NCBI RefSeq assembly: GCF_964019765.1
Contig: NZ_OZ026461.1
Location: forward strand, 124,001-188,000
DNA: 64,000 nucleotides
Direction of reading: 5' to 3'
DNA from: Spiroplasma endosymbiont of Panorpa germanica
GTDB lineage: Bacteria; Bacillota_I; Bacilli_A; Mycoplasmatales; Mycoplasmataceae
Notes under the pieces: generated by a model
What the model was told of the DNA's origin: nothing
The model's input: only the letters and a program-made list of their open reading frames with translations
Databases searched by the model: none
Shown here: piece by piece, positions 17,928 through 49,957 of the stretch
How positions within the stretch are numbered: the first letter of the stretch is position 1
How the letters are laid out: each line of letters opens with the position of its first letter
Translations under genes and position numbers: made by a program

Positions 17928-17972
17928 ATATATATGAAAAACTCTTGTATTACGAGAGTTTTTCATATATAT
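17928..17972. terminator. Long perfect hairpin (18 paired bases)
   Basis: Arms 17928-17945 and 17955-17972 pair perfectly around a 9-base loop. The core is AAAAACTCT/AGAGTTTTT extended by alternating A/T. It probably terminates the upstream small gene; it is nearly symmetrical, so it could act on either strand. Confidence 0.75.
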
Positions 17973-18028
17973 TATATGTTTATAATTTTTTGTGGTATAA
18001 TATAAAGGAATTAAAGGGGAATATATTA

Positions 18029-18640
18029 ATGAACAGATGGTATTTATGAATAGCAATTACAATAATGGCCTTAGCAGGTTTTTCGTTTTATTTAGTGTGA
18101 GATTTAAATCAATGATTTACACAACCAGAAAACTACATCGTTTTCATCCAAAATAACTTTATTCTAAACTTAGAGGATACATCAATTTTGCCAGTTTTTA
18201 GTGGTAAAGGAATGTCGACGTTTTACCTATTGTTTGCATTTGATGGGGCTATTCTTGCATTAAGTATTTACTTAATTGGTTATGCAATCTACTTAGGATT
18301 AGATGGATTTGGTAGAGTTTCGTCATTTATTTGAGCGTTAGTTCCCGGTTTAGTGGCTCTTGGACTAGCGGTAACCCAAATTTTCTTACTGGCAACTTTA
18401 TTCCATAACTTTGCAACCTCTCCACTAGAGTATGGTAAATTTTTAGATTTTAAAAAAGAACAGTGATATTTGACAGAAAAATTTGACGATTTATTTATCT
18501 TTAATGGGGTAACAAAACAATACGTAGCTAATCCTCAAAATGAAATTATTAAACTTGTAACAAAAACTTGTTATGTTGGATATGCAGCAGCGGGAGTAGG
18601 GGTGATTTCACCACTACTTTACGTAGCAATTCGTAGATAA
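18029..18640 (+). CDS. Hypothetical membrane protein, 203 residues
   Basis: Read with four UGA codons as Trp. An N-terminal membrane segment is followed by an extracellular-looking stretch of about 45 residues, two closely spaced helices (near residues 70-90 and 105-128), a second hydrophilic loop of about 50 residues, and a final helix ending YVAIRR. ATG 18029 is preceded by AAAGGGG, and a TATAAT box lies at 17996-18001. No family is recognised. A terminator directly follows, so it appears monocistronic. Confidence 0.75.
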
Positions 18641-18641
18641 A

Positions 18642-18670
18642 AATAAAGCCCTAATGGCTTTATTTTTTTT
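18642..18670 (+). terminator. Terminator upstream of the beta-glucoside unit
   Basis: Stem AATAAAGCC (18642-18650) / GGCTTTATT (18656-18664), loop CTAAT, then T run. Confidence 0.85.
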
Positions 18671-18680
18671 GGAATTTTAT

Positions 18681-18710
18681 TCTTAAAAAATTGATATCAA
18701 TTTTTTAAGA
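18681..18710. promoter_or_regulatory. Perfect 30-bp palindrome, probable operator
   Basis: Both halves match exactly around the centre TTGATATCAA, with flanks TCTTAAAAAA and TTTTTTAAGA. It follows a complete terminator and ends 36 bases before the ROK gene start, so it is unlikely to be another terminator. Position and symmetry suggest a binding site for a dimeric regulator (GntR, LacI or RpiR types are candidates) controlling the ROK-GH1 unit. No regulator gene is adjacent. Confidence 0.6.
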
Positions 18711-18746
18711 TACTTCATTTAGTACTATTAGTAAGAGGTGAATAAA

Positions 18747-19613
18747 ATGGATTATATATTTGATATCGGGGGTATGTCTAGTAAATTTGAAATTTATGAT
18801 GGTGATAAAAAAGTTAAGTCAGGAAACTTTATCTATGAAAAGTTTGTAAATAATTTTGAAATCATTGAAATCATTGATAACATAATTACTAAAAACCAAG
18901 ATAAATTTCCCATAACAGTTATTGGAATCTCTTCTCCTGGAATTGTTGATCCGGTTTCTGGACAAATTTCAGGTTTAGCCGCGATTGAGAACTATCATTT
19001 AGTTAACTGGAAAACTGAACTTCAGAAATGAACAAATCAGGTATTTATTGAAAATGATGCCAACTGTGCAGCTTTAGCGGAGTTAAGTAGTGGTAATGCT
19101 AAAAATTTTAGTAATGTTTTATTTCTAGTAATCGGAACGGGAATTGGGGGAAGTTTAATAATTGATAAAAAACTTTACTCAGGTAGTTTCTTGCAAGCGG
19201 GAGAAATTGGTTGTGGTTTAGAATTTATTGAAGACAATAACTACTACAACAGTTCTACGCAATGTTCAACAAATGCTTTAATAAACTTTTATCAAAAATT
19301 GACTTATGAGAAAAAAACCGGTGAAGAAATTATGAAAAATTATCAAACTGATAAAGCGGCTAGAACAGCTGTGGATAAAATGGTCTTTAATATTGCTAAA
19401 TTAATTATGAACTCAGCTTTTCTAATTGATCCCCAACTTGTTTTGATTGGTGGGGGCATTAGTCAGAGTAGTTTGTTAATTGAGTTAGTAACTATTAAAA
19501 TAGATGAAATACTAAAACTAACAAATCTTAAAAGAAACTATGAAATTAAATCGTGCTATTATTATAATGAAGCAAACTTAATAGGAGCTCGCGCTTTAAC
19601 AAAGGAGAAATAA
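18747..19613 (+). CDS. ROK-family sugar kinase, probably a beta-glucoside kinase
   Basis: 288 residues, normal ROK length. It shows the N-terminal phosphate loop (FDIGGMSSKFEIYDG), the catalytic aspartate in ENDANCAALAE, the second phosphate loop GTGIGGSLI, and VLIGGGIS near the C-terminus. The usual zinc motif CxCGxxGC is missing; SSTQCSTNALI occupies that place. ATG 18747 has AAGAGGTG at 18733-18740; an in-frame GTG overlapping that site is rejected. The gene is followed one base later by a GH1 6-phospho-beta-glucosidase. The pair would phosphorylate an imported disaccharide and split it (inference from the BglK-BglA type of pathway). Confidence 0.85.
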
Positions 19614-19614
19614 A

Positions 19615-21027
19615 ATGAAATTAAAATTTCCAAAGGATTTTTTATGAGGTACAGCTACCTCGGGTCCACAATCAGAGGGAACAAAAGATAAACCACACTT
19701 AAATGTAATGGATAAGTGGTTTGAACTTAAGCCAGAAGATTTTCACAATCAAGTTGGTCCAACAATAGCTTGTGATACTTATCAAAGATATGAAGAAGAT
19801 ATTCAGATTATGAAATCATTGAATTTAAATAGCTTTAGAACATCAATTCAGTGATCGCGATTTATTGATGATTTAGAAACTGGAACAATTAATGAGAAAG
19901 CTCTAAAATATTATCGTGACTATTTTTCAAAACTTAAAAAAGCCGGTATTAAATTAATGGTAAATTTATATCACTTTGATATGCCATGAGAACTTCAAGA
20001 AATTGGGGGATTTGGTAACAAAAAAGTAACTGACCTATTTGCACTTTATGCGAAAAGATGTTTTGAATCTTTTGGGGATTTAGTAGATATGTGATCAACA
20101 ATGAATGAACCAATTGTTCCTGTTGAAGCGCAATATTTATACCATTGATGATACCCATACATTAGTGACTATAAGTTAGCAGCACAAGTAGGGTACAACA
20201 CAATTTTAGCCCATGCTAAAGCGGTTTTAGAATTTAAGAAACTTTTTGCAAATGATGCTAAAAAAGAAATTACTGTGGTCTTGAACTTGACTCCAAGTTA
20301 CTCAAAAGATTTGGAAGCTAAAAATATTAAAGCCGCAAAAATCAGTGATGCCTTTTTTAACAAATCAATGTTAGATGCTGCTGTTAAAGGAGAGTTTAAT
20401 AAAGACTTTGTTGAAATTTTAAAAACCGATCAAGTGCTCCCTGAATATACTAAAGAAGAATTAAAAATAATTGCAGAAAATAAAATTGATTTTTTAGCAG
20501 TTAACTACTATCAACCACGAAGAATTCAAGCCCTTTCAAAACCTTACCAAGGGGAAAATATGCCCGATAAGTATTTTGAAGTTTATGATTGAAAAGAGAA
20601 AAGAATTAATCCTCACCGAGGATGAGAAATTCACCCAGAAACAATTTATAACATTGCAATGGATATTAAGAATAACTATGGAAACATTAAATGATTTATT
20701 TCTGAAAATGGAATGGGTGTTGAAGGTGAAGAAAAATTCCTAGACGCTAATGGTGTGATTCAAGATGATTATCGAATTGATTTCATTAAAGAACATTTGT
20801 ATTGACTAAATAAAGCTATTAACGAGGGATCAAATTGTTTTGGTTACCAAATGTGAACTTTTATTGACTGTTGAAGTTGAGCCAACTCATTTAAAAATCG
20901 ATATGGTTTTGTAGCCTTAGACTTAACAACACAAAAACGAACAATTAAAAAATCAGGACAGTGAATTAAAGAATGTATTAGTAAAAATGAGTTTGAAATT
21001 GATGAAAGCTTAGTTGTTAAAAACTAA
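19615..21027 (+). CDS. Glycoside hydrolase family 1, probable 6-phospho-beta-glucosidase
   Basis: 470 residues, full length for GH1. The N-terminal signature is FLWGTATSGPQSEG. The acid/base glutamate lies in WSTMNEP (about residue 165) and the nucleophile in FISENGMG (about 365). The C-terminal GYQMWTFIDCWSWANSFKNR holds the sugar-binding tryptophans. The K/Y phosphate-site signature is partly visible in KNRYG. It would cleave 6-phospho-beta-glucosides to glucose-6-phosphate in the cytoplasm. Trp is encoded almost only by UGA. The start lies one base after the ROK stop (AAGGAG upstream), so both share one transcript under the palindrome at 18681-18710. Confidence 0.92.
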
Positions 21028-21101
21028 GCTTTTGCTTTATCAAACTGCAAGTAATAAAGAGGTTTAAATTTGATATAATTAAATAATAGTTAGGATTACA
21101 T

Positions 21102-26953: not shown

Positions 26954-26987
26954 AAAAAAGCTTTATTTAAATAAAGCTTTTTTTAAA
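26954..26987 (+). terminator. Terminator of the pot operon
   Basis: A perfect 30-base palindrome (26954-26983) with AAAAAAGC/GCTTTTTT ends, followed by further T. Its A and T ends and position at the operon end mark it as a terminator, unlike the palindrome at 18681. Confidence 0.85.
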
Positions 26988-49923: not shown

Positions 49924-49957
49924 AAAAATCAATTTATTTAATAAATTGATTTTTTTA
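49924..49957 (+). terminator. Terminator after eno
   Basis: AAAAATCAATTTAT pairs with ATAAATTGATTTTT, followed by T. Confidence 0.85.

Follow-up and report, generated by a model that had tools for sequence, protein, structure and literature searches.

A perfect 30-bp palindrome before a ROK kinase-GH1 glycosidase operon of a Spiroplasma endosymbiont: a possible lineage-specific operator

Dimeric helix-turn-helix sugar repressors of the RpiR and GntR type use palindromic operators in Firmicutes and Mollicutes. BglG/LicT RAT sites are ~30 nt long, partly palindromic and located before beta-glucoside genes. The intrinsic terminators of AT-rich Mollicutes are long near-loopless palindromes with A-run/T-run arms, a build that is shared by the palindrome described here and is the usual terminator form in its genome. 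In BglK/GH1 modules for beta-glucoside utilisation a BglK-like ROK kinase is followed by a GH1 enzyme, as it is at the present locus. Mollicutes are said to lose regulation as their genomes shrink. In Spiroplasma melliferum, carbohydrate uptake and metabolism are the main targets of the predicted regulator sites (PMC5138195).

The window analysed here is a stretch of 64,000 nucleotides, positions 124001-188000 of the 1,054,068-base single-contig genome of the Spiroplasma endosymbiont of Panorpa germanica, with ORFs read in genetic code 4 (TGA = Trp). The proposed operator TCTTAAAAAATTGATATCAATTTTTTAAGA (18681-18710, no strand assigned) is perfectly symmetric and has no loop, with 15 bases in each arm (15/15 pairs); the adjoining outward bases do not pair, and each arm contains both a G and a C. 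The preceding plus-strand ORF (17945-18640) is without a Pfam match and ends in an intrinsic terminator (18639-18667, plus strand; 12-bp arms, a loop of 5, then a T run with a T8 tail) found by inverted-repeat and fold analysis. From this terminator to the palindrome there are 13 nt, and from the palindrome to the ROK start codon (ATG at 18747) 36 nt. A sequence-only reading had described a perfect palindrome of 15 mirrored bases, placed after a complete terminator and 36 bases before a kinase/glycosidase pair, and both the symmetry and the placement are borne out.

The operon itself, on the plus strand, consists of a ROK-family sugar kinase of 288 aa (18747-19613) and a GH1 glycosidase of 470 aa (19615-21027) that begins 1 nt past the kinase stop codon; the GH1 gene ends in an inverted repeat (21005-21032) that is probably the operon terminator. 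The best NCBIfam match of the kinase is the beta-glucoside kinase BglK, with a score of 116.6 bits where the cut-off is 550, and in profile matches the GH1 enzyme resembles beta-glucosidase/6-phospho-beta-glucosidase families, again with scores under the cut-offs. As neither protein reaches the curated cut-offs, the substrate is predicted from these likenesses; intracellular phosphorylation followed by hydrolysis of beta-glucosides is a plausible predicted role for the pair. A ribosome-binding site, GAGGTG (18735-18740, plus strand), is evident from sequence and alignment. The palindrome occupies the only space available for the ROK-GH1 promoter, where the recognizable hexamers are weak. Candidate promoter P1 (18683-18711, plus strand), a weak match picked out by reading and absent from the list of a consensus promoter scan, sits on the palindrome with TTAAAA (18683-18688), 17 nt and TAAGAT (18706-18711). 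An alternative promoter P2 would have its candidate -10 at TACTAT (18723-18728, plus strand), 12 nt past the palindrome and aligned to TACAAT in a related genome (G001, below), and would place the transcript start at the ribosome-binding site.

Symmetry of this length is far beyond chance, as would be expected of an operator. The window holds two loopless palindromes with arms of at least 15, as against none in random DNA of equal length (20 windows for each of three Markov orders, 1, 3 and 5); even arms of at least 12 were absent under two of the models and occurred at 0.05 per window under the third. Intergenic-like random DNA gave 0 to 0.33 loopless palindromes with arms of 15 per Mb, from a model that is rough since a generous ORF mask left only ~3.5 kb of training DNA. 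The second palindrome of the window (26954-26983) lies 9 nt beyond a stop codon and leads into a T7 tract, and it is therefore a terminator. The sequence-only reading had set the ROK palindrome apart from the other long palindromes of the window, taken as gene-end terminators, and for the window this holds. The genome-wide palindrome statistics rest on 182 kb of sampled stretches of the same genome. These contain 40 intergenic inverted repeats with arms of at least 10, most of which, judged by eye, close a gene or lead into a T tract; besides the ROK palindrome, the clearest case that departs from this and has the same layout is AATATATTAACACTTAAAGTGTTAATATATT (G000:C1:243538-243568; L009:1909-1939). 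This palindrome, different in sequence, has arms of 15 and a loop of 1, lacks a T tail, and lies after a terminator and 42 nt before the start of an ORF that has an ABC-transporter-like gene behind it.

An intrinsic terminator at 18681-18710 is rejected on the fold and the missing T tail. The palindrome core (TTGATATCAA, or ATTGATATCAAT) inside A6/T6 does not fold (0.0 kcal/mol), and the palindrome reaches -4.0 kcal/mol only with A6 and T6 paired and -10.7 kcal/mol with all 30 bases. The T6 belongs to the stem and AAGATAC comes next, so that a stable stem with an unpaired T tract behind it is lacking, and the gene upstream is already terminated at 18639-18667. The alternative recognized in the sequence-only reading, that the site acts only as an RNA hairpin terminator, thus finds none of the terminator features in place. 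A riboswitch or other known RNA is rejected, as an Rfam search gave no match at the palindrome, and BglG/LicT RAT antitermination is rejected likewise, since the terminator lies 5' rather than overlapping on the 3' side and the genome search yielded no PRD protein as cognate antiterminator. A more general RNA role is improbable. A transcript started upstream would fold a 13-bp hairpin in its 5' leader that could serve as a weak second terminator, an attenuator or an mRNA stabiliser. Consistent with this, the RNA folds with -11.5 kcal/mol at a z-score near -5, the genome has terminators whose stem holds just one G-C pair (49924-49954), and the outer frame TTAAAAAA...TTTTTTAA is common to some terminators here. 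However, the unfolded interior contrasts with the cores of seven other hairpins of the window, which retain -2.0 to -6.5 kcal/mol when their outer A/T runs are stripped; the paired T6, the full terminator 13 nt upstream, the missing Rfam match and PRD antiterminator, and the lack of conservation in G001 also count against an RNA element.

Two other genomes of the genus, G001 and G002, were compared. G001 carries the same ROK-GH1 pair (ROK 67% and GH1 88% identical), preceded by a relative of ORF 17945-18640, and this is the only ortholog of the operon with an alignable promoter. Its upstream DNA aligns ungapped from the terminator T tract to the start codon except for one base near the ATG, and it has TTAATT and TAGAAT at almost the same place as the P1 hexamers. 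The most conserved block in the alignment is GGAATTTTATTCTTAA (18671-18686, plus strand), identical at 16/16 positions and covering the first 6 bases of the palindrome, as against 14/24 for the inner 24 bases. Over the palindrome 20/30 positions are identical, and the aligned G001 site has 6/15 symmetric pairs, i.e. chance level; G001 keeps the 5' flank and start region without the symmetry. The G002 GH1 ortholog (80%) has neither a preceding ROK gene nor such a palindrome. Symmetry is thus not conserved before the orthologous genes of the two genomes compared, a number small enough for operator turnover to be a possible cause, and in the one ortholog available the outcome speaks against an operator as the sequence-only reading had framed it. 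A single ROK protein as query found no relative in the named genomes, and an alignment query only distant ROK relatives (44% or less).

These comparisons bear most directly on the main rival explanation, that the palindrome is AT-rich DNA around a promoter, neutral and lineage-specific, which gained its symmetry through chance mutation or hairpin-templated (quasipalindrome) correction and is bound by no protein. We consider this unlikely, though a serious contender: the homologous G001 DNA aligns ungapped but is not symmetric, conservation is strongest beside the palindrome rather than within it, and the palindrome is singular in its genome. Yet 15/15 pairs would be very unlikely to arise unless selection or templating had acted, and templating predicts that one arm should be nearer to G001, whereas both match it at 10/15.

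G001 also carries an insertion (L202:3080-6200) with integrase-core and helix-turn-helix genes and two ORFs of unknown function, which separates its homolog of ORF 17945-18640 from the ROK promoter; homology resumes at the terminator T tract. This transposase-bearing insertion upstream of the same promoter would suit a DNA element, structural or otherwise, that has nothing to do with the operon, such as a bend, a cruciform, a nucleoid-protein site or a mobile-element remnant, and the A6/T6 tracts and extrudable arms would permit bending or a cruciform. The single copy, the lack of a visible target duplication and a plasmid search in which the region found no match make this a very doubtful explanation; a mobile-element or plasmid origin is rejected on the plasmid result and the single copy.

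Among 27 ROK upstream regions across the order, examined by eye, only TCTTAAAAAATTGATATCAATTTTTTAAGA and one other site are non-terminator palindromes close to a start codon. The latter, TAATTTTTTATTTCAATAAAAAATTA (L201:4817-4842), is near-loopless, 26 nt long, and ends 33 nt before another ROK gene (41%) on the minus strand of G002; with a T run in its left arm and an A run in its right arm it is not terminator-like. It differs in sequence from TCTTAAAAAATTGATATCAATTTTTTAAGA and is at most a parallel in layout. Elsewhere in G002 a perfect 44-bp loopless palindrome at an RpiR gene end (L212:2308-2351) is probably a terminator. In the endosymbiont genome three short GH1 fragments of ~100 residues each lie among other genes (G000:C1:937840-945500; L203) and are apparently remnants of lost glycosidase genes.

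Further copies of the palindrome, for which the sequence-only reading had proposed a genome-wide search, did not emerge: the genome holds no second site with 3 or fewer mismatches over 30 bases. Nor does the 18-base core exceed its control in frequency (21 against 14, mostly at 3 mismatches); of the two sites with 2 mismatches one is inside a coding ORF and the other where a lipoprotein gene begins (5' end). In 60 family genomes a 22-mer matched 76 times on the forward strand and its control 53 times (our own sum), with no match of fewer than 2 mismatches outside the endosymbiont genome, and three full-core matches that were inspected (G018, G024 and G052) fall within ORFs that have no link to sugar use. 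The conserved flank GGAATTTTATTCTT, tried as an alternative motif, was rejected for its small excess (34/35 against 26/21 in the control, almost all with 2 mismatches). Recurrence before other genes of a regulon is thus not observed, which is not fatal to an operator since single-site regulons exist.

Candidate regulators were sought in the RpiR, GntR, LacI, DeoR and PRD families. RpiR is the commonest sugar-regulator family found, with six genome matches to the HTH_6 profile, five of them over the cut-off; four of the six loci adjoin sugar genes (GH1/PTS, MurQ/PTS, mannose-6-phosphate isomerase). DeoR has one match, beside a gene that reads from its sequence as fructose-1-phosphate-kinase-like, and the GntR, LacI and PRD profiles had no match in the genome. 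Of the families that the sequence-only reading had named for listing, RpiR is therefore represented while LacI and GntR went undetected. Its expectation that the regulator is not encoded nearby agrees with a Pfam scan of 20 other window ORFs, which contained no transcription regulator; the nearest RpiR gene lies beyond the window, ~33 kb upstream of the palindrome, and none adjoins the operon. All six RpiR-domain genes have relatives (66-100% identity) in G001, which lacks the site, and therefore no species-specific RpiR matches the species-specific palindrome; a cognate regulator of that kind is rejected. A 26-nt palindrome, AAGTTATGGAACTRGTTCCATAACTT, lies between RpiR and PTS genes in three species (L019:897-922, L223:897-922, L218:897-922) with one central change. 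The conservation (94%) extends to all of its surroundings, however, and T6 follows it, so that it may be a terminator rather than an operator.

The best reading of the palindrome, held tentatively and at somewhat less than even chance, is a single-site, lineage-specific operator of a dimeric regulator, the site being absent from the relative. For it speak the 15/15 symmetry, the position between a complete terminator and the operon start codon, the candidate -35/-10 pair on the palindrome, the unfolded A6/T6 interior without a T tail, the six RpiR-domain loci, four of them next to sugar genes, and the similarly placed palindromes AATATATTAACACTTAAAGTGTTAATATATT and TAATTTTTTATTTCAATAAAAAATTA; against it stand the 6/15 pairs of G001, the lack of a counterpart in G002, of a second site and of an adjacent regulator, and the sharing of all RpiR genes with G001. 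The original proposal of an operator for a sugar-responsive dimeric regulator thus survives in part: its non-terminator character, its position in the presumed promoter region and the sugar regulators elsewhere in the genome fit, while ortholog conservation, a second site and the LacI and GntR families are wanting. There is a slim prospect that the site serves as the sole operator for a regulator of some family outside those scanned and was gained after the split from the sister species; an old kinase-glycosidase operon would then have been put under new control in a bacterium that is otherwise losing regulation.

As an operator, the palindrome would lie in the promoter of a ROK-GH1 operon that uses phosphorylated beta-glucosides inside the cell. 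A homodimeric regulator of the helix-turn-helix type, with its gene at another locus, would occupy the palindrome and obstruct RNA polymerase until a sugar or sugar phosphate released it. The bound dimer would cover promoter elements with either P1 or P2, and such control would be confined to this operon and this species' lineage. We infer the exact place of the promoter, protein binding, repression rather than activation, the RpiR family and the inducer. If a regulator does bind it, the palindrome would give a clean example of a Mollicute gaining a control site for a single operon, and it might act as a beta-glucoside-responsive switch. If not, it shows that relatives should be consulted before long AT-rich palindromes of such genomes are labelled operators.

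Set against the known systems, the palindrome departs from Mollicute terminators in having no stable stem inside its A/T runs and no T tail, and in standing before a gene rather than at a gene end. Unlike a RAT site, which overlaps a terminator downstream of it, it comes after the terminator, in a genome without a detected PRD protein. The operon differs from BglK/GH1 modules in that both of its proteins fall under the curated cut-offs. The presence of both G and C in the arms is unlike the bias reported for the predicted S. melliferum sites (PMC5138195). Compared with the operators of dimeric helix-turn-helix sugar repressors, its 30-base perfect symmetry is long, and it is unconserved, with no adjacent regulator gene and no second site; it is nevertheless, like them, symmetric, placed before a sugar operon and close to a presumed promoter.
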